64,000 nt of DNA from Macrocybe gigantea (lineage: Eukaryota; Basidiomycota; Agaricomycetes; Agaricales; Callistosporiaceae). Below, piece by piece: positions 154-27,155 of the stretch (position 1 is the stretch's first letter; each line of letters begins with the position of its first letter). The notes beneath the pieces are model-generated. The model was not told the origin of the DNA, ran no database searches, and saw only the letters and a list, made by a program, of their open reading frames with translations. The stretch spans positions 124,001 to 188,000 of the forward strand of contig SJRY01000136.1 in NCBI GenBank assembly GCA_011319805.1, in the 5' to 3' direction. Position numbers and translations under genes: made by a program.

Positions 154-220
154 TCAATAAAGAATGGGAGGACGGGCGTGGGAGTTGGCTGATGACTAAG
201 ATGAGTAAGCCGTTCCACGA

Positions 221-321
221 GGACCGAAGGTCCGAGTCTGCCCGCGAGGACCGCAGGTCCGAGCCCCATGACTATTTTGGCAGCATTGGTCAGCAGTGCC
301 CATGACGACCACAGGTCCGAG
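221..321. repeat. Subterminal GGACC..GGTCC palindrome cluster of Helitron A1
   Basis: The imperfect palindrome GGACC-GNA-GGTCCGAG occurs at 221-236 and 248-263, with a decayed third copy near 306-321. Copy A2 has the same motif at 6049-6064 and 6115-6130. Each motif has 5-bp complementary arms and a 2-4 nt loop. They lie within about 170 bp of the 5' terminus, where Helitrons may carry transposase-binding repeats; that role is inference. Confidence 0.6.
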
Positions 322-739
322 GCCCGAGAGCCCATCAATTCAGGCCCTGAAAAAAAGCTGTCAACGAAAATTTGGCCCCCTCTTCTTTTTCCCCCTCTAC
401 CATCACCTTCAGCTTTTCTCCAGTTGGTTTGCACTTCAGTCCACAACTCTGCAAGAGACCAAGGTGAAGCCCAGTGAAGTCCTACCTCCCTGGCTTCTCT
501 TTTTTCAACAAAAAGAGTGTTTGCCAGTTGTCTATTGGCCCTTTTTTGGGTCAGACCTCTCTCTGGGCACAGTGTGTAGGGAGATTGGGCTGGCGGGTCT
601 ACAGTTGCCTCCCCTTCCTTTTTGGAAGTCGCTCCACTATCAACTACCACTGTTAGCACCGATTTCCCTGTTTCAGTTGGTGGATTTGGGTTGCATATAC
701 TCTGCAGTAGAAAACGCTTCATAGCTGCCTTGATTTTGG

Positions 740-758
740 TTTTTTTTTTTTTGGGGGG
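740..758 (+). repeat. T13-G6 homopolymer tract in Helitron A1 leader
   Basis: Thirteen T (740-752) followed by six G (753-758) lie upstream of the RepHel coding region. Copy A2 has T12 at 6550-6561 without the G6 run, so the tract length is unstable between copies. Confidence 0.7.
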
Positions 759-831
759 AAAAGCCTGATGTATGTTGAAGATTCTTTTTCTCACCATGTT
801 TTTTTATTTATAATAATAATATTGCCTCAGG

Positions 832-3800
832 GATCAACCAGTTACTCCACGAAGTGCTCTCCGTCAGCATGAGCGTGATAACCGCACTCTGGACAGTCCT
901 CATCGTCGTCGAATTGTGACTCCTGTGCCTCTTCCTATGCCTCCTGTGCCTCCTGGACCTGCTCATATTCCTGACGATCCCTTTGCTATGCCTCCACCAC
1001 CTCGCAATGCTCTGTCTGTGGCTGAACTGCGTGCACAGTTGAATGCTTTGCCAGAGCTTCAACCTGTGCGGCATATTCACAGAACCCTTCCTGTACCTGC
1101 TCCTATTCCTCAAGTTGCTCCTCCTCCTCAAGCTGCTCCTGCTCCTGTCTATAGTCATCTTCCTGCTCATTTACAGCAAGCATTAACTGCTTTGCCTCCT
1201 ATACGCTCCTCTATTGCTCTTCTTCCTGCTCCTGCTCCTGCTTCTGCTGTCTCTTATGCTGAATTGGCTGCTCGATATGCAAATTTGCCTCCTTTGCCTG
1301 CTCCTGTATGTCATTTTTCTGATAAGCTGGATTAATTTCAATGAATATTGTTTATTTTTAGCCTTTGCGACCTGTTCAACTGCCTGCTCCTTTACCACTG
1401 CCATTGCCTCCTATGCCTCCTCCTGTTGCCTCTCATGCTGAATTATCTTTGGCTGCTCCTGTACGTCATTTTTTCTAATAAGCTAAATTGATTTCAATAA
1501 ATAACAATTTGCCTTTAGCCTTTACCACCTATTCAACCACTTGCTCCTTTACCACTGCCATTGCCTTCTCCATTGCCTTCTCCTTCACCACCACCACCTT
1601 CTCCTCCTCCTCCTCTGCCACCACTGCCTATTGTCACCAACCTACCCCTGGCACGTCGCCCATTTGATCCCAATTGGCCTCAACATGACATGGGTAGAAT
1701 GAACATTGAATGTTCTTTCTGTCATGCACTGCATTGGATCTCTGAGCGTTTAGTCAAGTCTTCAATTTTTAACCCCAAGTTTGGCATGTGTTGCTACCAA
1801 GGCAAAATTGTGCTTCCTGCTCTGGATCGCCCACCTCCTGAACTTTTGACTTTGCTCTCTGAGCAAAATCCTATTGCAAACAAATTCCGTAAACATATTC
1901 GCAACTACAACAATGCACTTGCAATGGTATCAATTGGGCGCAGAGTCGATGCTTCTCTTCAGGCCAACGGAAATGCTCCCTATGTGTTTAGACTTCATGG
2001 AGAGCTCTCTCACAGAGCTGGGTCTCTTCTTCCTCCTCCTGGAGAGCCACCTGTCTATGCCCAGCTCTACATCTATGATCCTGATGATGCTCACAATTTC
2101 CGTATCGCAAACCAGTGGAATACCCATCTTGATCCTACAACTCTTCGCACAGTGCAAGATATGCTTTATCGTTGTCATCCAGGGGTGCAGTTATATCGGC
2201 AGGCATATGAGCAAACCAGAAATATGCCAGAAGATCACCAGTGCAGAATTGTATTGCGATTGGAGGATACTACTGATCACCGTCGCTATAATATGCCCAC
2301 TACCAATGAAATTGCTGTCATTCTGCCAGGTGATGGTGATCAACTTGAGAGTGCTCAGGACATTATTCTGTACCGCCGATTTGGTGAACCTCTCCAGTGC
2401 ATTTCAGACATCCATCCATTCTATCCAGCCCTCCAATTTGTCTTGCTCTTTCCTACTGGACAGCTCAGTTGGCATTCTAAAATTCTCTACAATCAAGCTG
2501 ATGCTTTGCAGCATGTCAATGCAAATGCACAGCTGCCAGATGCTCCAGAGGAAGCTCCAGAGGAAGAGGCTGAGGTCAATGGCAACACTACTGCCATACG
2601 ACGCAGATATGTTTCCAAGGTCCAGTTTTATCGCTACCGCCTCCATCCCCGTCCTCCTGCCATTGATTCTCAGCATCTCTTTCTCTCTCAAAAGCTCTTT
2701 CAAGAGTTTGTCTGTGATGTCTGGGCTACTGCAGAGCAGAGTCGCCTGCGTTGGGTTTGGCAAAACCAGAACACAATCCGAGGAGACATTTATGCTGGAT
2801 TGGCTGATGCAGTGGCTGCCAATGTGGATGTTAGCACAGAGGAATTGGGCCGCAGAATCATTCTGCCTGCTACCTTTGCAGGAAGCACCAGAAACATGCA
2901 GCAGCTTCTTCAGGATGCTTTGGCCATCAATCGTTTCTGTCATGGTGGAGATCTCTTCATCACTATGACTGCCAATCCAAACTGGACAGAAATTACTGTC
3001 GAGCTTTTGCCTGGCCAGACAGCAGCTGATCGTCCAGATTTGGTCATCCGAGTCTTTTATCGCAAAAAGGATGAGCTGATCGAGGACATCAAGAAAGGTG
3101 TCTTTGGCAAGGTCATAGCCTATCTCTTTGTCATCGAGTTTCAGAAACGTGGCCTGCCTCACATGCACTGCATCCTCTTTCTTGATCCAGAGTCTAAACT
3201 TCAGACTCCTGAGCATATCGACAGCCTACTCTCTTCTGAATTCCCAGAGGACAATCCTGAACTGCTTGAGCTAATCAAAAAGTTCATGGTCCACACACCA
3301 TGCGGTGCAGAAAATCCCAGAGCTCAATGCATGGAAAATGGCAAATGCACCAAGAACTTTCCAAAGCCCTTCAGAGAGCATACCACCATTACTGACAATG
3401 CATATGCTGCCACCCATCGTCGAGACACCGGTCATACCCATGATGTTCGAGGCAAGCAGGTCGATAATCGCTGGGTTGTTTCTTATTCTCCCTGGCTTAT
3501 CTGGAAGTACCAGTGCCATATCAATGTGGAGTGCATTGCATCTATCAAAGCAGTCAAATACATCTACAAATATGTTTACAAGGGTCATGACCGGGTCTCC
3601 ATGCAGTTTGGCACTGTGGGTGATGAAGTCAGGCAGTATCTGGATGCACGCTATGTCTCTGCATGTGAAAGTCTTTGGCGCATCTTCCAATGTCCACTTC
3701 ATGGCCAAGCACCCAATGTCATACGGTTGCAGGTTCACCTTCCAGATGAGCAGTTTGTCACTTGGAGGCAGGATGGTCAAGAGTCAATGCCAGAGGTCGT

Positions 3801-5903
3801 TTTGCGAGGAGGAAGACAGGATTCCACTCTCACTGCCTATTTCAAGGCCAATATCAAATATCCTGATACAGCATCCACTGTACTCTATCAGGACTTTCCT
3901 TCCCAGTTTGTGTTCAACAAGAAGCATGAGTGGAAGCCCAGACAGAGAGGATTTGCTATAGGCCGCATGAATTATGCTCCTCCCACATCAGGCGATCGCT
4001 TCTATCTTCGACTTCTTTTGACCCAGGTCGCAGGCTCAATATCTTTTGAAGACCTTCGCACATATGAAGAAGTCATACATCCTTCTTTCAAAGATGCCTG
4101 TCTTGCACGTGGCCTTCTTGAAGATGATCAGGAGTGGGATCAGTGTTTACGTGAAGCAGCTGCTATGCAAACCGGTCGTCAGCTTCGCCATCTCTTTGTC
4201 ACCATTCTGAGAGATTGCAATCCTTCAGATCCTGCTGCTCTATGGAACACATATTGGCCCCAGATCTGTGATGATCTACGCTATCATCTTGAGCATGACA
4301 ACATCCGTGTCAATCCCTCAGATGAAGATATCATGGATTATGGCCTTTTTCTCATTGACCAGCTTCTCCAATCTTCTCGCCGCTCTCTCAAGGATTGGCC
4401 ATCCATGCCACAGGTCACTCAGAATTGGAATGAAAGGGTTGCAAATCATCTCATAGCAGAGCAGCACAATTACGATCAGGAGGAGCAGGCTCAATTGGCA
4501 GCAGAGAATGAGGCCAGGTTGAATCCAGAGCAAAGAGATGCCTTTGATCAGTTCCGACAGGCCATTGCCAACAAGACAGGACAGATCTTCTTTCTTCATG
4601 GTCCAGGAGGCACTGGCAAGACATTCCTCTATCACACTCTCTGCTATCATCTGCGTTCCGAGGGCAAGATTGTTATCTGTGTGGCATCTTCTGGCATTGC
4701 CTCTCTTCTGCTTCCAGGTGGTCGCACATCACATTCAAGTTTCAGAATCCCCATTCTCATTAATGAGTCTACTATGTGTACAATCACAAAGACATCACCA
4801 CTTGCTGCTCTGATTCGCATAACAGATCTCATTATCTGGGATGAGGCTCCTATGCAGCATCGTCACATTCATGAAGCTGTTGATCGCACATTCCAAGACA
4901 TTCGGGCAGTGATCTACCCTTTGGTGGATTGACTATTATCTTTGGTGGAGACTTTCAGCAGATTCTTCCAGTCATTAAAAATGGATCCCGTCCAGACATA
5001 GTGGGTGCATGCATGCTGCGTTCTCAATTGTGGAGAAAGATTACAGTCCTCCATTTGAGAAGAAACATGCGATTGAACACTGATAATCTGGAAGAGCGTG
5101 CTTTTGCAGAGTGGCAACTTCAAGTTGGACATGGTCAGCACACAGATATGGATGCCAACATTACCCTTCCTGATCATTTTCACTGTGAACACAATACTGT
5201 TGCTTCTCTTATCCAAACCATCTATCCCAACATCAACACTCCCATCCAGAATCCACAGCAATACTTTTCTGCTCGCACCATTCTGTCTAGCCGCAATGAC
5301 GATGTGGACTCTTTGAACCATTACATTCTCAGAGACTTTCCTGGAGCAGAGCAAGTCTTTCACAGTGCTGATTCGGTCCCTGCAAGCAACAATGGTGAAC
5401 AGCTGCTCTATCCAATAGAGTATTTGAACTCTATCAATTGTTCAGGACTGCCACTGGCCAAGCTAGCTCTCAAAATAGGCTGTCCTGTCATGGTGTTGCG
5501 CAATCTGGATACAGGCCATGGTGTTTGCAATGGGAGTCGAGGAATCGTCACTCGGATCTGTAATCGTGTTCTGGAGCTAAGGCTCATTACAGGTGATCAT
5601 GCAGGAGAGTTGATCTTCATCCCACGTATCAAGCATGAGCCACCAGAAGGACAAGTGCCATTCCCACTCACTCGGCTTCAATTTCCCATCCGCTTATGCT
5701 TTGCCATGACAATCAACAAGTCACAAGGCCAATCAGTAACACATGTTGGGCTGGATTTACGTACACCGGTTTTCAGTCATGGTCAGTTTTATGTTGCTAT
5801 ATCACGGGTAACATCAGTACATAACATTAAAGCAATATGGGAAGCAGACAAGATAGATAGTGTAACTAAAAACTTTGTATATAATGAAGTACTATTGGAT
5901 TGA
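832..5903 (+). pseudogene. RepHel (Rep/helicase) of Helitron A1, frameshifted
   Basis: This encodes the rolling-circle transposase of the element. Recognisable exons are about 832-1305, 1362-1460 and 1519-5903, separated by GT..AG introns 1306-1361 and 1461-1518. The first coding exon and ATG lie further upstream, beyond an apparent acceptor ending at 830, and are not resolved. The N terminus is Pro-rich, followed by a CxxC..CC zinc-binding-like block (about 1705-1790) and the Helitron Rep domain with HUH motif GLPHMH (about 3150-3170) and tyrosine motif YIYKYVYKGHD (about 3560-3590). The PIF1-like helicase follows with Walker A GPGGTGKT (about 4600) and Walker B WDEAP (about 4840). Near 4904/4905 one A present in copy A2 is missing, so the frame ends at 4932. 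The rest of the helicase (GGDFQQILPV, INKSQGQSV, YVAISR) continues in another frame from 4929 to 5903. Confidence 0.92.
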
Positions 5904-5942
5904 ACATTTAAAGTGTGTTACAAAAGGCCGGGGGGCATAAAA

Positions 5943-5969
5943 GTGCCAGCGGCACGTGTTATATACTTG
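5943..5969 (+). other. 3' terminal hairpin and end of Helitron A1
   Basis: The perfect 5-bp stem GTGCC/GGCAC with loop AGC is followed by GTGTTATATACTTG, after which the next element starts at 5970. A hairpin shortly before the 3' end is the recognised termination signal of Helitrons. Confidence 0.85.
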
Positions 5970-7705
5970 TCAATAAAGAATGGGAGGACGGGCGTGGGAG
6001 TTGGCTGACTAAAATTAATTTGTCAGCCTTGGTCAGCAGTTTCCACGAGGACCGCAGGTCCGAGCCCCGAGGCCCCATGACTTTTTTGGCAACATTGGTC
6101 AGCAGTGCCTGTGAGGACCGCAGGTCCGAGCCCCGAGAGCCCATCAAAATCAGGCCCTGAAAAAAAGCTGCCAACGAAAATTTGGCCCCCTCTTCTTTTT
6201 CCCCCTCTACCATCACCTTCAGCTTTTCTCCAGTTGGTTTGCTCTTTAGTCCACAACTCTGCAGGAGACCAAGGTGAAGCCCAGTGAAGTCCTACCTCCC
6301 TGGCTTCTCTTTTTTCAACAAAAAGAGTGTTTGCCAGTTGTCTATTGGCCCTTTTTTGGGTCAGACCTCTCTCTGGGCACAGTGTGTAGGGAGATTGGGC
6401 TGGCGGGTCTACAGTTGCCTCCCCTTCCTTTTTGGAAGTCGCTCTACTATCAACTACCACTGTTAGCACCGATTTCCCTGTTTGGGTGTGAGGATTTGGA
6501 TTGCATATACTCTGCAGTAGAAAACGCTTCATAGCTGCCTTGATTTTGGTTTTTTTTTTTTGGAAAGGTCTGATGTATGTTAAAGATTCTTTTTCTCACC
6601 ATGTCTTTTTATAATAATAATATTGCCTCAGGGATCAACCGGTTACTCCACGAAGTGCACTCCGCCAGCATGAGCGTGATAACCGCACTCTGGACAGTCC
6701 TCATCGTCGTCGGATTGTGACTCCTGTACCTCTTCCTATGCCTCCTGTGCCTCCTGGACCTGCTCATGTTCCTGACGATCCCTTTGCTATGCCCCCACCA
6801 CCTCGCAATGCTCTGTCTGTAGCTGAACTGCGTGCACAGTTGAATGCTTTGCCAGAGCTTCAACCTGTGCGGCGTGGTCGCAGATCCCTTCCTGTACCTG
6901 CTCCTATTCCTCAAGTTGCTCCTCCTCCTCAAGCTGCTCCTGCTCCTATCTATAGTCATCTTCCTGCTCATTTACAGCAAGCATTAACTGCTTTGCCTCC
7001 TATGCACCCTTCTGTTGCTCTTCCTCCTGCTCCTGCTGTCTCTTATGCTGAATTAGCTGCTCGATATGCAAATTTGCCTCCTTTGCCTGCTCCTGTAAGT
7101 TATTTGTTCTAATAAGCTACATTGATTACAATAAATAATAATTGACTTTTAGCCTTTACCACCTGTTCAACCACCTGCTCCTTTACCACTGCTATTGCCT
7201 CCTATGCCTCCTCCTGTTGCCTCTCATGCTGAATTATCTTTGCCTGCTCCTGTATGTCATTTTGTCTAATAAGCTAAATTGATTTCAATAAATAACAATT
7301 TGCCTTTAGCCTTTACCACCTATTCAACCACTTGCTCCTTTACCACTGCCATTGCCTTCTCCATTGCCTTCTCCTTCACCACCACCACCTTCTCCTCCTC
7401 CTCCTCTACCACCACTGCCTATTGTCACCAACCTACCCCTGGCACGTCACCCATTTGATCCCAATTGGCCTCAACATGACATGGGTAGAATGAACATTGA
7501 ATGTTCTTTCTGTCATGCACTGCATTGGATCTCTGAGCGTTTAGTCAAGTCTTCAATTTTTAACCCCAAGTTTGGCATGTGTTGCTACCAAGGCAAAATT
7601 GTGCTTCCTGCTCTGGATCGCCCACCTCCTGAACTTTTGACTTTGCTCTCTGAGCAAAATCCTATTGCAAACAAATTCCGTAAACATATTCGCAACTACA
7701 ACAAT

Positions 7706-7709
7706 GCGC
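7706..7709. repeat. Target site duplication, left copy (GCGC)
   Basis: GCGC directly precedes the TG of the left LTR and is repeated at 16837-16840 after the CA of the right LTR. The uninterrupted Helitron sequence around it matches A1 (AATGCACTTGC there). A 5-bp reading (GCGCT) is also possible if the LTR starts one base later. Confidence 0.8.
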
Positions 7710-8836
7710 TGATAACTATCGGGTAGCACTAACCTACAAACCAACAAGGTGGAATGAAGGAAGCGTCAGTCCCTATCCGAGGCTGTATAAACTACGAGCT
7801 GTTCAAGTCACAGAGTAACCCGAGGGACTGTAGCGTGAAAGGGGGGAATGGAACGAAGTGAATATGGATGGTTTCGAGCGGGTTTCGGGGTTTTCGAAAC
7901 AAGGCTGTTAGACTTAGCTGAATTCCCGCGCGATATCGAGGGCTTCAGTGAGGGTTTCGGAAGGGTTTCGATGATAATGACTTCCACGCGAAGCCAGAGA
8001 CACTGATTTCGAGACTGAGTACAGTGGCTCCATGCGAGCGCGACACTTTGAGATCGGATAACACAAGGACTCCACACGAGTCGTAGACTGCGAGACTGCT
8101 GAAGGACTGAGACGGTAACTTTTTCTATGTGTTACAAATGCCAAGTACATGGGTTTTTATAGATGAGAAGATTTCGGGTATCAGAATAACCGGCGAAGTT
8201 GAAACCGAATGAGAGAACGTATCGTATGATTTCGAAAGGGTCGTTTAGTGGCTGAAACGTCGGGGAGATGTAAGTCCGTTCGAAATCTGAACATAAAGGG
8301 TGAAACAGTAGGTAAAAGAACATCCCGAAACCGGTGCCATGCGTCGTAGAATGGAACGTGAAAATAATCTAAGGAACGTAGAATGTATCAGTGAAATATG
8401 AGTCATGAATTTCGAAATGAGAGTGGATGAAATGGTAGCGCGCTCGAAATCCCTTGTTTCGAATGTACTGCGGCGAGGCAGTGTCGGGAACGCGGGAAGG
8501 CGTGAGGCGGTGCGATATCGAAAATGGTAGTAGTCTTGCCATATCGGGATCTGGAAATCGGGGGAGGCATATAGGAATAAGACTGCCTGACCGGATTGGG
8601 CGGTATAGGAAGCGCAGAATGTCCGGAATGTACGTGTGCGATGCGTTTGGCGAAGTGTCAGGGACCTGGAATGGAAGCCTCACGGAGTTGTCGACATCCC
8701 GAGTACTCGAACGAGAAGTCAGCGACTGGACTGCGGTATCATGCTGAGGGGGCCGAGTAGTGGTATGATTTCGAATGCGGGGGCGGGATTACCAAATTAG
8801 GACTTATCGGCGGTCAGCGGTGCGGAGCGCTCATCA
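7710..8836 (-). repeat. 3' LTR of the Gypsy element
   Basis: The LTR is 1,127 bp with TG..CA ends. Against the 5' LTR I find one extra base (near 8032) and substitutions near 8042, 8182 and 8574. It contains no long ORF. On the minus strand a TATAAAAA box lies at 8161-8154. Confidence 0.95.
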
Positions 8837-8837
8837 T

Positions 8838-8853
8838 CTGTCCTCCCCACTTA
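8838..8853 (-). promoter_or_regulatory. Polypurine tract of the Gypsy element
   Basis: Read on the minus strand, AAGTGGGGAGGACAGA is almost pure purine and stands immediately upstream of the 3' LTR. That is the expected place for the RNase H-resistant primer of plus-strand DNA synthesis. Confidence 0.75.
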
Positions 8854-8994
8854 GCGGTCGACTGTCCTCAGTCGGCATTCCCATTGAACGGCGACCTTGG
8901 TCGTTATTCGGGTAACGTGGGTTTCGCGAGTTGATCTGCCATGACGAAGTCGCGAGGCATTTCGGGCGTTCCCGTCGTTTACAGATTGCGCCTG

Positions 8995-9002
8995 TATAAA
9001 AG
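8995..9002 (+). promoter_or_regulatory. TATA box of the antisense gene
   Basis: TATAAAAG lies 107 nt upstream of the ATG at 9102, on the strand opposite to gag-pol. The spacing leaves room for a start site about 30 nt downstream and a 5' leader of about 75 nt. It is outside the LTR. Confidence 0.55.
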
Positions 9003-9101
9003 GGAGGGTGGGATGGGTACGAACACCTTTCTTGTCGACTCGTCGAAATCTCAGCTCTCGCCAAATCGCATACCGCTTCTCAAAACCGTCTTGTACACGA
9101 C

Positions 9102-9647
9102 ATGTCCGCCGAAATCGTCAAGACCGAAACTTCTATTGCCGAGCTTGAAGGGCTCTTCGAGGCCGTCCCCGGACCGAACGCGAGCGTTGAGGCCATCAAG
9201 GCCTTTAGTGCTGCGGTCTCGAAATGTTTTGTAAGTCCAACGGGGAGTGAGTGAGGCGATATCTTTATCCGTATTGACATTAGGATGAGTGGGCAAAGGA
9301 GGGTCAAGACGTTCCCGAAGACGTCTTTCAGGATTGGGTTTCGCGATACAATGAGTGGGTTGGCCGCCTGGACGAGGATCGTCGGGATGAGGTTGGGGGC
9401 CTGTACGAGAGCCCGGGATCTGGTGAGTCACGCTATTTCGTCTCCACTACACTGGATTGCTGATTTCGAAGGTTCTTCGCTTGGCGGAATGGTGCTCGCG
9501 GATGGTCCCCTGGTGCCCCCGAACGCGATGCTGACTACGCGTGTCCCAACTGCGGGACCTTCTCGAAAGCGTGGGGCGTCAGATTCTGCAGCTGGTGGTG
9601 CGGATTCGGGAGCGAAACGACGGCGTGCGGTGACTCTTTCGGCATAG
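9102..9647 (+). CDS. Antisense two-intron gene carried by the Gypsy element (147 aa)
   Basis: The exons are 9102-9230, 9284-9422 and 9472-9647. The introns 9231-9283 (GTAAGT..TAG) and 9423-9471 (GTGAGT..AAG) have strong donors and restore one frame of 148 codons including the stop. The protein begins MSAEIVKTETSIAELEG, is acidic and helical in its first two thirds (DEWAKEGQDVPEDVF, RLDEDRRDEVGGLYE) and ends in a basic segment with PSRKRG and KRRRAV that resembles a bipartite nuclear localisation signal. I do not recognise the family. The gene lies opposite to the retrotransposon transcript, so its introns would not be removed during retrotransposition. Its last codons overlap the integrase region on the other strand. 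Codon-level fit, splice sites and the TATA box make a chance ORF unlikely, but expression is not shown. Confidence 0.7.
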
Positions 9648-12160
9648 AAGACCGAATGGACGTATTGTGACCACTTGCTTTCGACACCGTCTGCTGCCTT
9701 TATCAGTGATTGACGAACATCATAATGCGGCCGCTCAGCTATCCCGTTGGCGCGGGAATTGTATGTCGAGATTCGGATGTGGTAGATGCCGTAGCGTTTC
9801 CCGAGGTAGTCAAGACCTGCCACGAAGGGACCACCGTTATCCGTGACAATTTCGCGAACACCACCCCATCGACATAATACATCCTGGAACAGCCATTCAC
9901 CGATTGCGGGACCGTTTTCTTTCCGGAGGGCTCGAAATTCAGGATAATGCGTGAGGGAGCAACGACCTTGCACGATGTACTGGTAGCCATTGGACTTTGG
10001 CATCTTCATGGTGTCGGCATAGAATTTTCCGAAAAGGGGCGCGGGTACTGCCACGACTGGCGGGATGAGAACCTGTCGGGACTGTCGTTGCTGACAGATG
10101 TGACAAGTCCTGCAAAACCAAGAGATATCGGCCAGCATGTGAGGCCACCAAAAGCGCTCACAAACCAAGGTACGTGTCGGGTAGATGCCCTTGTGACCGA
10201 GGTCATCATGGGCTTGGGCGATGATGTTCATACGCCGATTTCGAGGGATCACGAGTTTGTGACTACCTTGGTCGTCCTTTCGCCATAACTTGTCAGCAGC
10301 AACGAAGAAGTGGAAGCAATACCGAACAAAGGCCTCGAAAGCAGAATCTGTGAGACTGGGTGGACGACGCAAGGTGGTCAAATAGTCCTGTACGAGGTCG
10401 AGACGCTGATCGTCGGCAATGGCTGATTTCGAACGAGGAACAAATACATAGTCAGGGATGGAGCTGAGCTGTCGAAGGTCAGGGTTGGCTTCCAGGCGGT
10501 CTTCGGACTCGGGAGAGGAGGAGTTTCGGTGGAGGACAGCTTGACTGTCCTCCCCACTTGAAATGTCCTGTCCTAGGTATATCGAAATGAGGTGACTTCG
10601 ACGTGTTTCGGGACGATATCGAGGGGTGTTAACAAAATGGATGAAGCCATAGACTCTGTCGATCCAATCGTCGAAATCTTCGTCTTGGTCAGGCTCGGGA
10701 TCGCCTGGTCGGCGGGAAAGACCATCAGGACCGTGACTAGAGCCAGGAACATGAACAAGTGTGAAGTGGAATGTCAGGATCGTCAGGATCCATCGATTGA
10801 TACTGGCAGAGGGGACTATATCGGGATTGTTTAGCATGCCTTTGATGTAGCGGGCATCGACTTCGACAACGAGGTTTCGTACACCAATGATGTACATGCG
10901 TACTGCACGGACCGATCGGAATAAGCCATAGATTTCGAGTTTCGGTTGTGAGAAGCGACGTTCGCGATCGTTCAGTGTGATGGATCCGAAACGGTTATAA
11001 TATCGGATTCGAGGGTTATCGGGGTCGCATTGGCAAAGGAAGTAACCGACTGCGATGTAGGAGGTATCGACGGCGAGGATAATGGGGGCTTCCGACTTGT
11101 AGTCGAGGGGTCGGAGAGCTGGAGAAGTGATAAGGGCTTGTTTCAGGTCTTCCTGTGCGTCGAGTTGCTCCTGACCGAAGACGTAGTCTACATTCTTCCG
11201 CGTAAGGCGGACTAAGGCGTCAGCGCGATGAGCGAAATTTCGAATGAAGATACGCATGACACCAATCGTTCCGAGGAAGGCGCGAACGTCTGAGAGGTCT
11301 CGGCACGGTTTCCAAGTTTTGATTGCGACAACTCGGGATTCATCAGGAAGACGACCTTTAGGCGTACAACGGTGTCCAAGAACTGTGATTTCGGGACTAC
11401 AGAGCGTGAGCTTTGTGCCAGAAAAGGTGCCTCCAGAATACTTCATGCGCTGGACAACACGGTTCAGATTGCAAAAGTGTTCCCAAACGAAGCGACGGAT
11501 GCCGGGATTCTGTGGAATGGTTTCGAAACTGTTATCGGGACGTCGATATTCGGAATCTGGGCCTTTCACGGGGACATCATCGATATAGGGGATGGTAAGA
11601 TGCGGTATCTCGTCTTGTAGGATGAAAGTTACATCATCATGGAATATAGGAACGGAATTGGTCCAGCCCATCGGGAGCGTAACAAGTCGCATAGCGCCAA
11701 AAGGGGTCTGGAACGTAGTGAGATCCCGAGAGTTTTCAGCGAGGAGTCGTTCATCGTAGCCAACATAGAGGTCAAGCATCGCACCACAGGGGCGGCCACC
11801 AAATTGTTCTGCTAAGTGATCAGGGACCGGGGTAACTCCGGAATGACGGATGGTGACTTTGTTTAGCGGCTCGAGGGAGTGGACGATGCGAAGCGACTTG
11901 CCATCTTTCTTGACGACTGTGAACCACCGGGAGCGGTAGGAGGAATTCGAGGGCTCATAGACACCGGCATCGATCTTTCGACGAATGAGCTGACAAATTT
12001 CATCATAAATACCAGGAGGTATCGGGATGTTCTTGTGAATCCAAGGCTTGTGCTGAATGACAGGGATTTCGACGGCAGGGAAAAAGTCTTCTCGAAATCG
12101 ACCGCGCTCTTGGTCGGTCCAAGCGAAGGCGCCGTTCTGGAGGCACATAAAGTGGTGCAT
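9428..12160 (-). CDS. Gypsy pol: reverse transcriptase, RNase H, integrase
   Basis: The frame holds 910 codons. Reverse transcriptase is at the N terminus (VVKKDGKSLRIVHSL near residue 90, active site YIDD near residue 190). RNase H follows (ILAVDTSYIAVG, QPKLEIYGL, VEVDARY). The integrase has an HHCC zinc finger (HDDLGH, then CRTCHICQQ) and a DDE core with FYADT, IVTDNGGPF and NGIAERPH; the last Asp and Glu are about 35 residues apart. No GPY/F motif or chromodomain is visible after VTARRR, where the frame overlaps the antisense gene. The final 70 or so residues are Pro/Ser/Ala-rich and may be only an overprinted frame. The start is set by a -1 shift from the preceding frame near 12190-12198, where one base seems to be missing. 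Confidence 0.88.
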   Translation of the reverse strand: MHHFMCLQNGAFAWTDQERGRFREDFFPAVEIPVIQHKPWIHKNIPIPPGIYDEICQLIRRKIDAGVYEPSNSSYRSRWFTVVKKDGKSLRIVHSLEPLNKVTIRHSGVTPVPDHLAEQFGGRPCGAMLDLYVGYDERLLAENSRDLTTFQTPFGAMRLVTLPMGWTNSVPIFHDDVTFILQDEIPHLTIPYIDDVPVKGPDSEYRRPDNSFETIPQNPGIRRFVWEHFCNLNRVVQRMKYSGGTFSGTKLTLCSPEITVLGHRCTPKGRLPDESRVVAIKTWKPCRDLSDVRAFLGTIGVMRIFIRNFAHRADALVRLTRKNVDYVFGQEQLDAQEDLKQALITSPALRPLDYKSEAPIILAVDTSYIAVGYFLCQCDPDNPRIRYYNRFGSITLNDRERRFSQPKLEIYGLFRSVRAVRMYIIGVRNLVVEVDARYIKGMLNNPDIVPSASINRWILTILTFHFTLVHVPGSSHGPDGLSRRPGDPEPDQDEDFDDWIDRVYGFIHFVNTPRYRPETRRSHLISIYLGQDISSGEDSQAVLHRNSSSPESEDRLEANPDLRQLSSIPDYVFVPRSKSAIADDQRLDLVQDYLTTLRRPPSLTDSAFEAFVRYCFHFFVAADKLWRKDDQGSHKLVIPRNRRMNIIAQAHDDLGHKGIYPTRTLVCERFWWPHMLADISWFCRTCHICQQRQSRQVLIPPVVAVPAPLFGKFYADTMKMPKSNGYQYIVQGRCSLTHYPEFRALRKENGPAIGEWLFQDVLCRWGGVREIVTDNGGPFVAGLDYLGKRYGIYHIRISTYNSRANGIAERPHYDVRQSLIKAADGVESKWSQYVHSVFYAERVTARRRFAPESAPPAAESDAPRFREGPAVGTRVVSIAFGGTRGPSASTIPPSEEPSKSAIQCSGDEIA
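10546..10559 (-). promoter_or_regulatory. Second copy of the polypurine tract (candidate central PPT)
   Basis: The 14 bases TGTCCTCCCCACTT at 8839-8852, which form the core of the terminal polypurine tract, recur exactly here inside the pol frame, between RNase H and the integrase zinc finger. An internal primer for plus-strand synthesis is a plausible role; this is inference from sequence identity alone. Confidence 0.4.
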
Positions 12161-12776
12161 CAGTCTTCGTTCTTCTGGCCAAAGGAAGCCTTCGGGATGG
12201 CCTTGTCGACGAGATTTCGACGATCCTCGGTATAGCGACCGGTCGGGATAAAAGGAGGGGGATTTGGGGATAGTTTCGGCATACTGGCAAGCGGGTCTCC
12301 GCGGATTTCGCGGAGGATTCGAAATTTGCCATTATCGGGAAGTGGGGCAACGACGGAACGGACTTTGAGGGCGACGGGCTTGTATTTACGTTTCGCGAAC
12401 GTATCGCGCGATTCGGGAGGGGTATGTCTAGAAAGTTCGGGAGCGCACCTGGTCACATCATATAAATAAACAAAATCGGAAGAGGAAGTGTTCGTGGTGT
12501 TGAAACCACTCTGAAATTGCGTCTGAGGTCGTGTTGGACGACCACTAGACTCGTACAGTAAAGCTGAAATCGGGGAAATGGAAATATCACAGGCCGAAAG
12601 ATATAAGGATGAAAGATAATTTGAAATGGACGTATCGGGAGCGGAATTAGAGACGGGATTGGGAGCAGGAACCTGGGCGTAGTAATCGAGGCGAAGGTCC
12701 AAATTGTCTTGAGTTTTGTCCGAGGAAACAACGAAAGCGTAATCGCCGTCAGCTAACGTGTCCTCTATCTGCGAAA
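12160..12776 (-). CDS. Gypsy pol N-terminal segment (linker before RT)
   Basis: This open frame lies between the protease frame and the RT frame. Its first ATG is at 12702, but the frame is open up to the T7 tract at 12774-12780 and would be entered there by a -1 shift. It encodes about 200 residues rich in Ser/Thr/Tyr, with GYNTT-like and RKYKPVALKVRSV segments and a C-terminal part that leads into the conserved region just before RT. It ends at a TGA at 12160 where the RT frame takes over in -1. It is best read as part of pol, broken or shifted, and not as a separate protein. Confidence 0.65.
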
Positions 12777-15053
12777 AAAATCCACTGCAGCCGTCTTCTT
12801 TCCTGGCATCATGTATTTCGGTTTGCCACGGGGCTGAGTCGGGATCGTAGTACGTCTGTTGGTGTTGGGATCGTGTATTGTGATGGTTTGATCCTCGTTC
12901 CGGTAGTTCTTGACGAGAGATTCGGTTAAGACGTCAAAGGGGCGACCGAGGAGGATATCATAGGCGGGGTTAGGTAATACATGGATTTGGGCGTAGAGGG
13001 TGATTTCGTTGATAGTAACCGGGATGTTTCGGGATAATCCAAGCGATTTGTCAATTTCGCCATTGGCTGACTGCATATCGAGGCGGACGGTAGGGTCATA
13101 GGCGATCCCGAGCTTGTGACATACTGCATCAGACATGGCTATAATTTGGGATCCGGGATCAACGACACATTCAACATAGTCTTGATGATCGATGAGACAT
13201 GTGATAGAGCGAAGGGCATGACTCTCTTTGGCTACGATGAGGCGTTCGGGATCGATCTGGTCACGGCTCATGCTCGAAATGTAGGTTGAAATCGGGTCTT
13301 CGATGATGGTAGCGCCCCTCGGTGGCGCGGCTTGTCCATATGTAGCGGCGTTGGAATCTGCGATGCCGAAAGGGAGTTCGTTAAGGTTGATTGATTTCGA
13401 CGGGGTGGTATCTTCGTCGGGGATTTCTTCGATGGTAGCTCGAAACACAGGTTCGGGAATGCTGTACTCCTGGGACATGACTGCGATGGGGTTGGTCTCG
13501 TTAGCTACCCGTTTTGGAGTGACAAGCTCGCGCATCTTCGATCTGATTTCGGGGGAAAGGGAAAGGAGGGCCTCGTTGGAGATTTGAGTGGTGCCTTTCA
13601 AAACGGTTTCGAAGATTTCATCTGCATGCTTCTTATCGACGACGGGGAAAACGTTCTTGTAGGCGGGTTGTTTCGAGGGGTCCTTGTTAGTTGGTTTGGC
13701 TACTGGGGCGGGAGCTGCAAAGTTTCGAGTGGTGGGAGGAGCGTAACGAACTTCAGGAACATCGCGGAAGGGATGGATGGGTCCCTCGTGACGGATGGTT
13801 TCGGCCTGGGTATTCTCGGGAAGAGTCTGCGACGAAGGAGCTGGGGATACTTCCTTTTCTTTACCTTTTGATGCCGAAGTACTGGCCTCGGGATTCTGTG
13901 GCTGACCTGGGGATGGTTCTGGATTTCGAGGTGAAGAAGCAACTACAGGAGTTTCGGGATTGACTCGGCGGTTTGCGCGAGGCGGCCCTCTGCGGGTGAT
14001 TTCGACATGATCCATAACGGTGCGGCGGTTGGCGAGGACTTGGGCTTCGAGATTTAGCTGACGGATACGTTCTTGGATATCAGACAGGCGGTCGTTGACC
14101 TGGGTACTGGCCGCGGGATTTACGGCATAAGCATAGGTGGAGTCGCTCGGGACTATGGGATTCTCTGTAGGGTTATAAGTTGCGACGGAAAGGAGCATTT
14201 GGCCGGTGGTGTCTGCATTGGAGGTAATAATTCCGCGTGGTCGCTCGTTAGGATACTGCCTATAATATTCGTTGACACGTTCCTGCATAGTGGCACCTCG
14301 AATAGCTCTCGGAATTTCGGCCTGTGTCGGGAGTGTGATTCGCCCATTGAAATCACGGCGGATAAGGCCTTCTCGGATATAATTCTCGGCCGTCTCACAG
14401 TCCCTAATGCGACAATCGGGTTTACCACAGAAATGACAGCCCTCGGGACGGTTTCCGGGAGCCCGGGGTCGGAAGCCTCCAGTATTGGCTTGTGCCTGCA
14501 TAAACTTGACGAGAACGTCGCTGATCCCGGTTGTGATGTTTTGAGTCATACTCGCAAGGATGGTGTTAAGGTCCTCCTGTTTTACAGAGGTTTCTGGAGC
14601 GGCTGAAGTACTTCGGGTTGCGGGGGCTATGGACTGGTAACGGACCGACGAAGCTCCGGGCTGTTCTTCCCGTTTAAAAACGTAGGCTGCGGCATCTTGT
14701 ATATCGACAAGCGAGTGGGTGAAATAGGGATCGTAATCCGGGAACTTGACTTCGAGGCGATCTCGGACTTTGGCTTGTAAATCCGTGGGGAACGCGCGTT
14801 CGTAGGCCCTAGCTTGCTCTTTGGCCGACATCTCTTCTTTGTCAACTAGATACTTCGTGATAGTGTAAAATTTGCGGTAATATTCCGCGAGCTGCTCGTG
14901 GGTCCTGATGCCGAGGCGACTGGTTTCGCCAATGAGCCGGTCTAAATCGCCCATGTTATAGCGATGTTTGTCTTCAGCTCCGGGTAGAGACGCTGAATGG
15001 CATCTCGGAAGTCGGCATAAGGGCGACCTTGGAACTCCGGGAGGCTTTCCCAA
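12765..15053 (-). CDS. Gypsy gag C-terminal part, zinc knuckle and aspartic protease
   Basis: The frame holds 762 codons. It is entered near 14976-14986 by a -1 shift from the gag N-terminal frame, so residues before that point are probably not translated. It has a helical capsid segment (MGDLDRLIGE, EYYRKFYTITKYL), then a zinc knuckle-like CHFCGKPDCRIRDC (about 14390-14440), where the usual His is Cys. A long Pro/Ser-rich linker follows, then a retropepsin-type protease with VVDPGSQI (about 13140-13160) and ILLGRPF (about 12940-12960). The catalytic triad reads D-P-G. The frame stops at TAG (12765-12767), nine bases after a T7 run. Confidence 0.85.
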   Translation of the reverse strand: MGKPPGVPRSPLCRLPRCHSASLPGAEDKHRYNMGDLDRLIGETSRLGIRTHEQLAEYYRKFYTITKYLVDKEEMSAKEQARAYERAFPTDLQAKVRDRLEVKFPDYDPYFTHSLVDIQDAAAYVFKREEQPGASSVRYQSIAPATRSTSAAPETSVKQEDLNTILASMTQNITTGISDVLVKFMQAQANTGGFRPRAPGNRPEGCHFCGKPDCRIRDCETAENYIREGLIRRDFNGRITLPTQAEIPRAIRGATMQERVNEYYRQYPNERPRGIITSNADTTGQMLLSVATYNPTENPIVPSDSTYAYAVNPAASTQVNDRLSDIQERIRQLNLEAQVLANRRTVMDHVEITRRGPPRANRRVNPETPVVASSPRNPEPSPGQPQNPEASTSASKGKEKEVSPAPSSQTLPENTQAETIRHEGPIHPFRDVPEVRYAPPTTRNFAAPAPVAKPTNKDPSKQPAYKNVFPVVDKKHADEIFETVLKGTTQISNEALLSLSPEIRSKMRELVTPKRVANETNPIAVMSQEYSIPEPVFRATIEEIPDEDTTPSKSINLNELPFGIADSNAATYGQAAPPRGATIIEDPISTYISSMSRDQIDPERLIVAKESHALRSITCLIDHQDYVECVVDPGSQIIAMSDAVCHKLGIAYDPTVRLDMQSANGEIDKSLGLSRNIPVTINEITLYAQIHVLPNPAYDILLGRPFDVLTESLVKNYRNEDQTITIHDPNTNRRTTIPTQPRGKPKYMMPGKKTAAVDFFRR
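12774..12780 (-). promoter_or_regulatory. Candidate -1 frameshift site T-TTT-TTT before the protease stop
   Basis: On the minus strand the protease frame reads GAT TTT TTT CGC AGA TAG. The heptamer T TTT TTT fits X XXY YYZ in the zero frame, and a -1 slip enters a frame that is open through the pol N terminus. I have not identified a downstream pseudoknot. A simple homopolymer indel would look the same. Confidence 0.45.
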
Positions 15054-15298
15054 AGCTCGGAGGTCGCAAAGTCGGGATAACGAATGGCATACTCCTTCTT
15101 CTGCGCGTCACCCGTGACTCCGGCATCACTGAAGAGGTGGTCGAGTTCTCTGAAGTATCGGGAGAGCTCACGGGGCTGCGCGGGATCGAAACGTGGAGCT
15201 GTGGAGTGGCCACGAGCTGGCATAGTTACTAGCCGTGCGGGAGCGGGGTCACCGACACCAGCGCCGGACGCGGGATTGTTGGTTTCATTGTTAGACAT
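14942..15298 (-). CDS. Gypsy gag N-terminal part
   Basis: The frame has 118 codons from the first in-frame ATG (MSNNETNNPASG). It contains a capsid-like segment (PRELSRYFRELDHLF, WESLPEFQGRPYADF). The frame is open for about 130 codons upstream of this ATG without another ATG, back to a TAG near 15680. Gag could therefore start at a non-AUG codon, or an earlier ATG was lost. The capsid homology continues in the -1 frame after about 14980, so the last dozen residues here are probably out of frame. Confidence 0.75.
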   Translation of the reverse strand: MSNNETNNPASGAGVGDPAPARLVTMPARGHSTAPRFDPAQPRELSRYFRELDHLFSDAGVTGDAQKKEYAIRYPDFATSELWESLPEFQGRPYADFRDAIQRLYPELKTNIAITWAI

Positions 15299-15689
15299 GC
15301 TGGATAACAGATTTCGAACTGATTGTCGGAGATCACGGAGTTGTTGGATATTTCGGGAAGGGGTTCTTTCAGGAGGGGACTGTGATGGAGTTGGATTGAT
15401 AAGGATGGGACTTGAGTCTAGTGTCGAAAGCGGGTCTGAAAGGAGTTCTAGATCGGAATCCGTTTCTTGTTTGACTGAGGCTGGGGATAAGGGTTCGGGA
15501 GATGAAGGTAGCGAGTCGGGAAGAGAGATAAGGAGTTCAGGAGAGGGTGCTCGGGAGCGCGGAACAGGTGATCGACGGAGATTTCGGGGACCCGGGGTTT
15601 GTCTCCTGCGAGCGGCTGCCTGGGCGCGGGAGGTAACAGTGGACGAGGTAGAAGATTGGCGGTTGGGGTTACTTGAAATCTTGAACTAG

Positions 15690-15707
15690 CCCTCGCGGTG
15701 GGCTCCA
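15690..15707 (-). promoter_or_regulatory. Primer-binding site of the Gypsy element
   Basis: On the minus strand TGGAGCCCACCGCGAGGG starts three bases after the 5' LTR. It begins with TGG, the complement of a tRNA CCA end, and has the composition of an acceptor/T-arm. I cannot name the tRNA from memory. Confidence 0.65.
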
Positions 15708-15710
15708 AAA

Positions 15711-16836
15711 TGATAACTATCGGGTAGCACTAACCTACAAACCAACAAGGTGGAATGAAGGAAGCGTCAGTCCCTATCCGAGGCTGTATAAACTACGAGC
15801 TGTTCAAGTCACAGAGTAACCCGAGGGACTGTAGCGTGAAAGGGGGGAATGGAACGAAGTGAATATGGATGGTTTCGAGCGGGTTTCGGGGTTTTCGAAA
15901 CAAGGCTGTTAGACTTAGCTGAATTCCCGCGCGATATCGAGGGCTTCAGTGAGGGTTTCGGAAGGGTTTCGATGATAATGACTTCCACGCGAAGCCAGAG
16001 ACACTGATTTCGAGACTGAGTACGTGGCTCCACGCGAGCGCGACACTTTGAGATCGGATAACACAAGGACTCCACACGAGTCGTAGACTGCGAGACTGCT
16101 GAAGGACTGAGACGGTAACTTTTTCTATGTGTTACAAATGCCAAGTACATGGGTTTTTATAGATGAGAAGATTTCGGGTATCGGAATAACCGGCGAAGTT
16201 GAAACCGAATGAGAGAACGTATCGTATGATTTCGAAAGGGTCGTTTAGTGGCTGAAACGTCGGGGAGATGTAAGTCCGTTCGAAATCTGAACATAAAGGG
16301 TGAAACAGTAGGTAAAAGAACATCCCGAAACCGGTGCCATGCGTCGTAGAATGGAACGTGAAAATAATCTAAGGAACGTAGAATGTATCAGTGAAATATG
16401 AGTCATGAATTTCGAAATGAGAGTGGATGAAATGGTAGCGCGCTCGAAATCCCTTGTTTCGAATGTACTGCGGCGAGGCAGTGTCGGGAACGCGGGAAGG
16501 CGTGAGGCGGTGCGATATCGAAAATGGTAGTAGTCTTGCCATATCGGGATCTGGAAATCGGGGGAGGCATATAGAAATAAGACTGCCTGACCGGATTGGG
16601 CGGTATAGGAAGCGCAGAATGTCCGGAATGTACGTGTGCGATGCGTTTGGCGAAGTGTCAGGGACCTGGAATGGAAGCCTCACGGAGTTGTCGACATCCC
16701 GAGTACTCGAACGAGAAGTCAGCGACTGGACTGCGGTATCATGCTGAGGGGGCCGAGTAGTGGTATGATTTCGAATGCGGGGGCGGGATTACCAAATTAG
16801 GACTTATCGGCGGTCAGCGGTGCGGAGCGCTCATCA
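15711..16836 (-). repeat. 5' LTR of the Gypsy element
   Basis: The LTR is 1,126 bp, TG..CA, nearly identical to the 3' LTR. It should carry the promoter for the minus-strand genomic RNA. Confidence 0.95.
16154..16161 (-). promoter_or_regulatory. LTR TATA box
   Basis: TATAAAAA on the minus strand lies about 675 bp from the outer LTR edge. A start about 30 bases downstream would give a U3 near 700 bp and an R-U5 near 415 bp. The same box is in the other LTR at 8154-8161. Confidence 0.45.
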
Positions 16837-16840
16837 GCGC
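16837..16840. repeat. Target site duplication, right copy (GCGC)
   Basis: The right copy of the 4-bp duplication lies at the point where Helitron A2 resumes. Confidence 0.8.
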
Positions 16841-19800
16841 TTGCAATGGTATCAATTGGGCGCAGAGTTGATGCTTCTCTTCAGGCCAATGGAAATGCTC
16901 CCTATGTGTTTAGACTTCATGGAGAGCTCTCTCACAGAGCAAGGTCTCTTCTTCCTCCTCCTGGAGAGCCACCTGTCTATGCCCAGCTCTACATCTATGA
17001 TCCTGATGATGCTCACAATTTCCGTATCGCAAACCAGTGGAATACCCATCTTGATCCTATGACTCTTCGCACTGTGCAAGATATGCTCTATCGTTGTCAT
17101 CCAGGGGTGCAGTTATATCGGCAGGCATATGAGCAAACCAGAAATATGCCAGAAGATCACCAGTGCAGAATTGTATTGCGATTGGAGGACACCACTGACC
17201 ACCGTCGCTACAATATGCCCACTACCAATGAAATTGCTGTCATTCTGCCAGGTGATGGTGATCAACTCGAGAGTGCTCGGGACATTATTCTGTACCGCCG
17301 ATTTGGTGAACCTCTCCAGCGCATTTCAGACATCCATCCATTCTATCCAGCCCTCCGATTTGTCTTGCTCTTTCCTACTGGACAGCTCAGTTGGCATTCT
17401 AAAATTCTCTACAACCAAGCTGATGCTTTGCAGCATGTCAATGCAAATGCACAGCTGCCAGATGCTCCAGAGGAAGCTCCAGAGGAAGAGGCTGAGGTCA
17501 ATGGCAACACTACTACAATACGACGCAGATACGTTTCCAAGGTCCAGTTTTATCGCTACCGCCTCCATCCCCGTCCTTCTGCCATTGATTCTCAGCATCT
17601 CTTTCTCTCTCAAAAGCTCTTTCAAGAGTTTGTCTGTGATATCTGGGCTACTGCAGAGCAGAGTCGCCTGCGTTGGGTTTGGCAAAACCAGAACACAATC
17701 CGAGGAGACATTTATGCTGGATTGGCTGATGCAGTGGCTGCCAATGTGGATGTCAGCACAGAGGAATTGGGCCGCAGAATCATTCTGCCTGCTACCTTTG
17801 CAGGAAGCACCAGAAACATGCAGCAGCTTCTTCAGGATGCTTTGGCCATCAATCGTTTCTGTCATGGTGGAGATCTCTTCATCACTATGACTGCCAATCC
17901 AAACTGGACAGAAATTACTGTTGAGCTTTTGCCTGGCCAGACAGCAGCTGATCGTCCAGATTTGGTCATCCGAGTCTTTTATCGCAAAAAGGATGAGCTG
18001 ATTGAGGACATCAAGAAAGGTGTCTTTGGCAAGGTCATAGCCTATCTCTTTGTCATCGAGTTTCAGAAACGTGGCCTGCCTCACATGCACTGCATACTCT
18101 TTCTTGATCCAGAGTCTAAACTTCAGACTCCTGAGCATATTGACAGTCTACTCTCTTCTGAATTCCCAGAGGACAATCCTGAACTGCTTGAGCTGATCAA
18201 AAAGTTCATGGTCCACACACCATGCGGTGCAGAAAATCCCAGAGCTCAATGCATGGAAAATGGCAAATGCACCAAGAACTTTCCAAAGCCCTTCAGAGAG
18301 CATACCACCATTACTGACAATGCATATGCTGCCACCCGTCATCGAGACACCAGTCATACCCATGATGTTCGAGGCAAGCAGGTCGATAATCGCTGGGTCG
18401 TTTCTTATTCTCCCTGGCTTATCTGGAAGTACCAGTGCCATATCAATGTGGAGTGCATTGCATCTATCAAAGCAGTCAAATACATCTATAAATATGTTTA
18501 CAAGGGTCATGACCGGGTCTCCATGCAGTTTGGCACTGTGGGTGATGAAGTCAGGCAGTATCTGGATGCACGCTATGTCTCTGCATGTGAAAGTCTTTGG
18601 CGCATTTTCCAATATCCACTTCATGGCCAAGCACCCAATGTCATACGGTTGCAGGTTCACCTTCCAGATGAGCAGTTTGTTACTTGGAGGCAGGATGGTC
18701 AAGAGTCAATGCCAGAGGTCGTTTTGCGAGGAGGAAGACAGGATTCCACTCTCACTGCCTATTTCAAGGCCAATGTCAAATATCCTGATACAGCATCCAC
18801 TGTACTCTATCAGGACTTTCCTTCCCAGTTTGTGTTCAACAAGAAGCATGAGTGGAAGCCCAGACAGAGAGGATTTGCTATAGGCCGCATGAATTATGCT
18901 CCTCCCACATCAGGCGATCGCTTCTATCTTCGACTTCTTTTGACCCAGGTCACAGGCTCAACATCTTTTGAAGACCTTCGCACATATGAAGAAGTCATAC
19001 ACCCTTCTTTCAAAGATGCCTGTCTTGCACGTGGCCTTCTTGAAGATGATCAGGAGTGGGATCAGTGTTTACGTGAAGCAGCTGCTATGCAAACCGGTCG
19101 TCAGCTTCGCCACCTCTTTGTCACCATTCTGAGAGATTGCAATCCTTCAGATCCTACTGCTCTATGGAACACATATTGGCCCCAGATCTGTGATGATCTA
19201 CGCTATCATCTTGAGCATGACAACATCCGTGTCAATCCCTCAGATGAAGATATCATGGATTATGGCCTTTTTCTCATTGACCAGCTTCTCCAATCTTCTC
19301 GCCGCTCTCTCAAGGATTGGCCATCCATGCCACAGGTCACTCAGAATTGGAATGAAAGGATTGCAAATCATCTCATAGCAGAGCAGCACAATTATGATCA
19401 GGAGGAGCAGGCTCAATTGGCAGCAGAGAATGAGGCCAGGTTGAATCCAGAGCAGAGAGATGCCTTTGATCAGTTCAGACAGGCTATTGCCAACAAGACA
19501 GGACAGATCTTCTTTCTTCATGGTCCAGGAGGCACTGGCAAGACATTCCTCTATCATACTCTTTGCTATCATCTGCGTTCCGAGGGCAAGATTGTTATCT
19601 GTGTGGCATCTTCTGGCATTGCCTCTCTTCTGCTTCCAGGTGGTCACACATCACATTCAAGTTTCAGAATCCCCATTCTCATTAATGAGTCTACTATGTG
19701 TACAATCACAAAGACATCACCACTTGCTGCTCTGATTCGCATAACAGATCTCATTATCTGGGATGAGGCTCCTATGCAGCATCGTCACATTCATGAAGCT

Positions 19801-27119: not shown

Positions 27120-27155
27120 ATAAATCTATTTGGACTATTTGGATTTCAATTACAA

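Follow-up and report, generated by a model that had tools for sequence, protein, structure and literature searches.

In the basidiomycete Macrocybe gigantea, a Gypsy retrotransposon carries, on the strand opposite to its gag-pol frames, a frame with the outline of a spliced gene. This arrangement raises the question of whether the frame is a real gene, whether it belongs to the element or was taken from the host, and what its product might do. The locus was analysed within a stretch of 64,000 nucleotides of contig SJRY01000136.1, referred to here as the window, and through other copies of the element in the genome (41.2 Mb, 333 contigs). A first-pass annotation of the window had considered an accessory protein of the element, an antisense regulator of pol and captured host cargo as candidate roles.

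The Gypsy Element and Its Surroundings

The element and its parts are listed in Table 1. Its two LTRs are nearly identical, as had been noted, with 3 mismatches and 1 gap over 1127 columns, and GCGC flanks the element on both sides. The domains of protease, RNase H and the integrase zinc region score above their Pfam cut-offs; RVT_1 in pol scores 20.1 bits against a cut-off of 29.6, and the pol frame 12160-12702 has no Pfam match. With the domain order RT–RNase H–integrase, the element is a Ty3/Gypsy LTR retrotransposon. In the protein database, 2021 of 7548 scored candidates match pol at E ≤ 0.001, and a protein of Mycena chlorophos, 64% identical, is the only organism-named entry among the 120 matches listed. 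A search of viral contigs with pol gave no match. A piece of the LTR has at least 40 matching places in the genome (40 of 139 candidates scored).

The element interrupts a Helitron-type coding frame. Helitron_like_N and PIF1-helicase frames are found at window positions 1-7709 and 16837-20900, and two similar Helitron-type copies begin near positions 106 and 5922. A second, different Helitron-type protein set occupies 21577-28476, with its C-terminal part repeated (525 aa at 25542-27119 and 279 aa at 27637-28476). Host-type genes are represented by Sec23/Sec24 domains (60714-61661) and the start of an OPT transporter (62652-63320). The whole window, scanned for Rfam families and tRNAs, yielded none of either.

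Table 1. Positions in the window of the Gypsy element and of the antisense gene that it carries.
Feature	Positions	Strand	Basis
Gypsy element, whole	7710-16836	-	9127 bp, paired LTRs
3' LTR, TG..CA ends	7710-8836	-	alignment to 5' LTR
TTTCGA/TCGAAA in 3' LTR, 14 hexamers	7872-8774		same set in 5' LTR
Polypurine tract adjoining 3' LTR	8837-8850	-	TCTGTCCTCCCCAC on +, named by eye
TATA-box-like TATAAAAG upstream of antisense gene	8995-9002	+	sequence
Exon 1 of antisense gene, ATG at 9102	9102-9230	+	ATG in 27/27 aligned copies
Intron 1, GTAAGT..ATTAG, 53 nt	9231-9283	+	both ends in 27/27 copies
Exon 2 of antisense gene	9284-9422	+	copy alignment
Intron 2, GTGAGT..CGAAG, 49 nt	9423-9471	+	GT/AG in 27/27 copies; GTGAGC in 5
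Exon 3, truncated after 157 of its 269 nt	9472-9628	+	comparison with other copies
Deletion junction (about 2.3 kb)	9618-9628		two sides match at 10 of 11 nt; window copy only
Foreign frame end (VTLSA + stop), antisense of integrase DNA	9629-9647	+	comparison with other copies
pol (RT, RNase H, integrase zinc-binding)	9650-12702	-	frames 9428-12160 and 12160-12702
gag (by position) and aspartic protease frame	12765-15053	-	Pfam and ORF list
Candidate primer-binding-site region adjoining 5' LTR	15681-15710	-	sequence only
5' LTR	15711-16836	-	alignment to 3' LTR

A Truncated Gene in the Window

The landmarks by which the gene was recognized are in place: the TATA-like site, the ATG, two introns with GTAAGT and GTGAGT donors and a frame of 147 aa that ends at a TAG (9645-9647), opposite to gag-pol and adjoining the 3' LTR. 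The window copy is a truncated remnant that keeps the front part of the antisense gene only. Of the 147 residues, some 142 are encoded by the gene proper; integrase DNA read in antisense supplies the remaining five (VTLSA) and the stop. The deletion has taken the rest of exon 3, introns 3 and 4 and exons 4 and 5, together with the DNA up to the integrase region; the stretch absent from the window measures 2318 nt in copy L009. With window positions 8800-9900 as query, other copies match as two parts (1-829 and 819-1101), and among the 43 matches listed the only one in a single piece is that of the window itself. The match of the other copies stops at about window position 9628 and continues elsewhere. 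Five LTR pairs in the genome (two on C264 and one each on C190, C100 and C251) lie about 10.3 kb apart, as against 8.0 kb in the window.

The truncation alters the reading of several features. The 147-aa frame is present in the window, but in other copies it runs on, its terminus here having been made by the deletion. The basic, NLS-like stretch AKRRRA, taken for the end of the protein, exists as such and lies in the middle of the product of the full gene. The view that the element moved recently with the gene on board holds for the family, although the gene of the window copy is truncated.

The Full-Length Gene in Other Copies

Twenty-nine places were fetched from the genome (L009-L037) and 27 were aligned, the partial copies L034 and L037 being left out. 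A contig end cuts L023 short, and in L030 and L031 the 3' part is rearranged. In all 27 aligned copies, which were chosen by their match to the gene, the antisense gene lies between pol and the 3' LTR, the arrangement known as aORF-3R. The full gene comprises five exons (129, 139, 269, 466 and 800 nt in L022) and encodes about 600 aa. Its four introns measure 53, 49, 56 and 76 nt in L012; since these lengths are not multiples of three, one continuous frame requires splicing.

The GT and AG of introns 1 to 3 are present in 27 of 27 copies, while intron 4 has its GT in 24 and its AG in 25 of the 27. Splice sites are thus mostly kept across copies, as the first-pass annotation had proposed to check, but not clearly above other dinucleotides of the same kind. 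Within a set of 24 copies, the splice GT is invariant in 3 of 4 cases versus 51 of 108 for other GT, and the splice AG in 4 of 4 versus 106 of 124 for other AG. Against this background, splice-site conservation was rejected as too weak a proof of the gene. The TATA-like box is not fixed across the 27 copies, with TATAAAAG in 17, CATAAAAG in 7, a deletion in 1 and the site uncovered in 2.

Broken Copies and Assembly Noise

None of the 27 aligned copies has a fully open antisense gene as assembled. On its face this speaks against the gene, as stops in other copies had been named beforehand as counter-evidence. Past function is not refuted by it, because some of the damage is of the kind left by C>T decay once a copy has inserted, and some is consistent with assembly noise. 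In L025, L026, L027, L030, L031, L032 and L035 a stop replaces an arginine of AKRRR, and these changes look like C>T decay.

Indels of 1-2 nt are distributed differently. The 14 copies at least 97% identical to the window have 59 of them in their exons, each copy having at least one (20 of the 59 are in L023, the copy cut by a contig end), whereas 11 more diverged copies have 9, five of these copies having none. The contrast is weaker in pol, with 20 indels in 12 copies versus 8 in 11. One single-nucleotide deletion in exon 1 is common to three copies and another, in exon 3, to five. The overall distribution suggests that the indels are largely assembly noise, caused by failed polishing of near-identical repeats.

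Purifying Selection on the Antisense Frame

Selection was assessed in 24 copies (L023, L030 and L031 excluded), with pol in the window and in 25 of the 29 fetched copies as a control. Variants present in two or more of the 24 copies were treated as shared, and C>T/G>A changes, the decay class, were counted apart. Counts are given below as synonymous/nonsynonymous, followed by the synonymous share expected.

An excess of synonymous changes, which the first-pass annotation had suggested looking for, is found in the antisense frame. Shared non-C>T variants number 25/7 (29% expected, p=1.4e-8) and singleton non-C>T variants 29/21 (26% expected, p=1.3e-6). In pol the corresponding counts are 15/2 (33% expected, p=4e-6) and 13/10 (p=0.002). 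Singleton C>T/G>A changes in the antisense frame lack a synonymous excess (58/103, 33% expected, p=0.24), which is slight among the shared ones (109/166, 34% expected, p=0.02). By region, shared non-C>T variants amount to 9/1 in exons 1-3 (29% expected, p=1e-4) and 14/5 in exon 5 (p=1e-4); in exon 4, which holds the cysteines, they amount to 2/1 and are not significant (p=0.19).

In the same 24 copies the other two forward frames have no synonymous excess. One reverse frame, in the wobble register, has one too (22/10, p=1e-5). In L012, exons 3, 4 and 5 contain stops in every reverse frame, so a sense-strand frame fails to explain the signal there. Two reverse frames stay open through exons 1 and 2, however, and the window has a 126-aa reverse ORF at 9051-9431. 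The shared counts translate into a rough omega of 0.11 for the antisense gene and of 0.07 for pol. Conservation of the frame is beyond chance, and the data support codon-level purifying selection of a strength comparable to that on pol. The intron-bearing antisense gene in a Gypsy element, as first read from a single copy, is thereby borne out across copies.

Age of the Association and Host-Gene Origin

Exon and pol distances covary among 23 copies (Mantel r 0.946, exceeded in 0 of 2000 permutations). Furthermore, a distant, decayed relative of the element (L068, on C192) retains the domain encoded by exon 5, with 34% identity over 99 aa (E 2e-8) and a second match of 51% over 49 aa (E 2e-5), the two in two frames; the database size for these E-values was set to that of the genome. 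The product of exons 1-4 was not found in L068 (best E 9.7), of which the LTR-proximal part seems to be missing. At the DNA level, exon 5 and L068 share an 11-nt match only, whereas the pol-side DNA is about 75% identical. Protein similarity kept without DNA similarity, next to pol-side DNA so alike, indicates that the antisense gene evolves faster than pol yet has long been part of the lineage. C192, C322, C323 and C324 show nearly the same pattern of matches to the decayed relative, and they are possibly one old insertion multiplied by duplication.

A search of the organism's own genome for a host gene of origin, made with two pieces of the protein (all 84 and all 89 initial candidates scored), returned the aligned copies and some weaker places. 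Pol sequence lies near those on C111, C192, C247, C322, C323 and C324. Two weaker places on C40 are decayed, with several stops. No intact separate host gene was found in this genome among the aligned copies and the weaker places read in context, which were those other than C40. Captured host cargo finds no support in this genome, where pol lies near most of the weaker places.

The Predicted Protein

The sequence shows an NLS-like stretch (AKRRR) and a basic stretch resembling that of bZIP factors; besides six cysteines there are proline-rich and basic linkers, and the tail is acidic. The cysteines, spaced CX2CX7CX9CX2CX6C, are the only six in residues 1-449 of the L012 product and all fall within 32 residues. 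A zinc-cluster-like pattern arose in 0 of 100000 shuffles, although this pattern was picked after it had been seen. Fungal Zn(2)Cys(6) clusters have the spacing CX2CX6CX5-12CX2CX6-8C, from which the protein departs in its first long spacer (7 residues, not 6), and PF00172 (Zn_clus) stays below the Pfam cut-off (11.2 bits vs 21, E 0.43).

The basic stretch, NKLAQQRYRERR, is not followed by leucine heptads, as judged by eye, and the product has no Pfam bZIP match; its likeness to an ATF-4 bZIP chain in the PDB is sub-threshold (E 0.49). More generally, the antisense product has no Pfam domain above cut-off and no PDB sequence match above threshold, and its C-terminal part is without a recognisable domain. 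Queried with the L012 product (449 aa) and with the exon-5 alignment, the protein database gave no match at E ≤ 0.001 (7999 and 7996 candidates scored, respectively).

Short Motifs Enriched in the Element

Two hexamers, counted on either strand, are over-represented in the element when compared with 200 Markov simulations, from which the expected and maximum values given in brackets were taken. TTTCGA occurs 14 times in the 3' LTR (1.3, 5), three TTTCGAAA palindromes (7892, 8230 and 8410) lying there, and 16 times in pol (3.7, 9). It stays within the simulated maximum in gag-pro, with 8 (2.3, 8), in the stretch lost from the window, with 12 (4.6, 13), and in exons 1-3, with 3 (0.5, 5). TCCCGA occurs 18 times in pol (3.0, 9), 11 in gag-pro (2.8, 8), 13 in the lost stretch (2.6, 6), 6 in the 5' UTR (0.8, 4) and 4 in the LTR (0.9, 4). 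With both LTRs included, the 9127-bp element holds 59 TTTCGA, as against 34 in the other 54883 bp, a density about ten times higher, and 46 TCCCGA, as against 18 in the other 54.9 kb. Both hexamers are at expectation in the host-gene part of the window (28.5-64 kb). Helitrons A and B have at most one of each, and TTTCGA occurs 8 times in Helitron C (2.9 expected, maximum 9). TTTCGG is likewise enriched (25 vs 7.3 expected), and TTCCGA (11 vs 8.5) and ATTCGA (7 vs 8.3) are not.

Two other explanations of the motif excess were considered. A codon effect does not suit TTTCGA/TCGAAA, which taken together occur in all three frames of pol and of gag-pro. Unmatched counts pointed to slower decay of CpGs within the motifs, both in the gene (87/281 vs 901/2217 for others) and in pol (24/122 vs 235/626), as expected from low context mutability or protection of the motif CpGs. 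This difference is gone when CpGs are matched by tetranucleotide: decay is 0.224 in TTTCGA vs 0.256 in other TCGA (p=0.28) and 0.342 in TCCCGA vs 0.320 in other CCGA (p=0.52), so motif CpGs decay no more slowly than others in the same tetranucleotide, and an excess due to low context mutability is not supported.

The strand bias of TTTCGA is small (8/6 in the LTR, 9/7 in pol). TCCCGA lies on the genomic-RNA strand in 46 of 51 internal sites (window 8837-15710 plus L009), in coding regions, the 5' UTR and the antisense gene, and favours one frame (6 of 10 sites in pol and 6 of 10 in gag-pro). This preference for one frame and one strand suggests that TCCCGA is not a simple double-strand binding site.

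Comparison with Known Systems

Grande, RIRE2, Retand, PvRetro13 and the fungal Boty have been described as carrying an antisense ORF in the interval from pol to the 3' LTR (PMC7264820). Grande gene23 and the genes of RIRE2 and PvRetro13, classed as aORF-3R, share the position of the Macrocybe gene (PMC7264820) but are from plants. Maize Grande gene23 is reported to have a promoter in front of it and to encode a nuclear protein (PMC7264820). Boty, or BcGypsy1, of Botrytis cinerea, with its additional ORF brtn (PMC8365987), likewise has an antisense extra gene in the pol–3' LTR interval of a fungal element (PMC7264820). The function of the known antisense ORFs is described as undetermined in PMC7264820 and PMC11963269, the latter relaying a regulatory role proposed for the TRP28 antisense ORFs of Retand by comparison with retroviruses. 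Retand encodes TRP28 (PF04195) in its antisense ORF, whereas the Macrocybe gene has no PF04195 match and has a six-cysteine cluster and several introns instead. The word "intron" does not appear in the main text of PMC7264820 or PMC11963269, whereas four introns are inferred here from 27 copies. Among the papers listed from the open-access literature, no title or opening of an abstract pointed to a basidiomycete example or to a multi-intron antisense gene with a cysteine cluster.

Two other systems serve as analogies only. HBZ of HTLV-1 is a spliced gene for a bZIP protein, and VANDALs are DNA transposons. HTLV-1 being an animal retrovirus, no homology is claimed; what is alike is that an antisense retroviral gene gives a nuclear protein (PMC11963269). 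The antisense promoter of HTLV lies inside the 3' LTR (PMC7264820), whereas the TATA-like site here is internal to the element. The Arabidopsis VANDAL/VANC system pairs a TE-encoded protein with short motifs accumulated in the TE (PMC5735166). These motifs are non-coding and often tandemly repeated (PMC5735166), whereas the hexamers in Macrocybe are dispersed, coding parts included, and their binding is hypothetical.

Proposed Role and Alternative Explanations

An accessory protein of the element is the best reading of the gene. This role, among those first suggested, is favoured by the purifying selection and the old association with the element. The window feature is probably the truncated 5' part of a true Ty3/Gypsy accessory gene whose product acts as a nuclear, DNA-binding regulator of its own family. 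The gene would be inherited with the element, its introns escaping removal during copying because it is antisense to the genomic RNA. Presumably transcribed and spliced in vivo, it would give a protein that enters the nucleus, most likely through its basic stretches, and whose basic/six-cysteine region is predicted to bind DNA; the C-terminal parts may tune transcription or silencing of the family. A more specific version, by analogy with VANC, is speculative and rather unlikely as a whole: the protein would be a self-recognition factor that binds TTTCGA (TTTCGAAA) sites in the LTR and much of the element and activates or de-silences its own family alone. It would be a retrotransposon counterpart of VANC, built on an HBZ-like spliced antisense gene and evolving together with its array of motifs, and TCCCGA may then be a distinct signal at the RNA level.

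The gene could be dead in this genome, selection being past, all copies broken and new ones arising with help in trans or not at all. This is a serious rival, though less likely than not: the lack of any open copy as assembled and the single-nucleotide deletions common to three and to five copies agree with it, whereas the greater number of indels in near-identical than in diverged copies is what assembly noise would produce. A structural or integration-targeting protein, such as a nuclear tether or particle accessory, in place of a DNA-binding regulator is unlikely; the domainless C-terminal part and the undetermined function ascribed to known antisense ORFs in PMC7264820 leave room for it, while the basic/six-cysteine region, the NLS-like stretches and the TTTCGA enrichment in the LTR, all circumstantial, point away from it.

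Recent capture of a host gene by transduction, now carried as passive cargo, is quite improbable. Introns of the spliceosomal type and a TATA-like box are what a cellular gene typically has, but no separate intact host gene was found among the places read in the genome, those other than C40, the distances of the gene covary with those of pol, purifying selection acts among element copies and the same domain occurs in a distant relative of the element; an ancient capture of a host gene is possible. Finally, it is very improbable that the antisense RNA is what matters, pairing with genomic RNA to feed silencing or dampen pol, with the frame incidental. The antisense position and the promoter-like site in front would suit such a role, which is discussed for plant antisense ORFs in PMC7264820, but the codon-level selection (25/7) and the protein similarity in L068 without DNA similarity both need a protein.

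The Macrocybe gene is real and selected, and it occupies a place where antisense accessory genes were already known, from plant Gypsy elements and one fungal element. The present data add codon-level evidence, drawn from copies in one genome, that selection has maintained a gene of this sort, and several introns may persist in it because it is antisense. The enrichment of TTTCGA makes the question of function testable, as binding of the protein to a motif in its own element.
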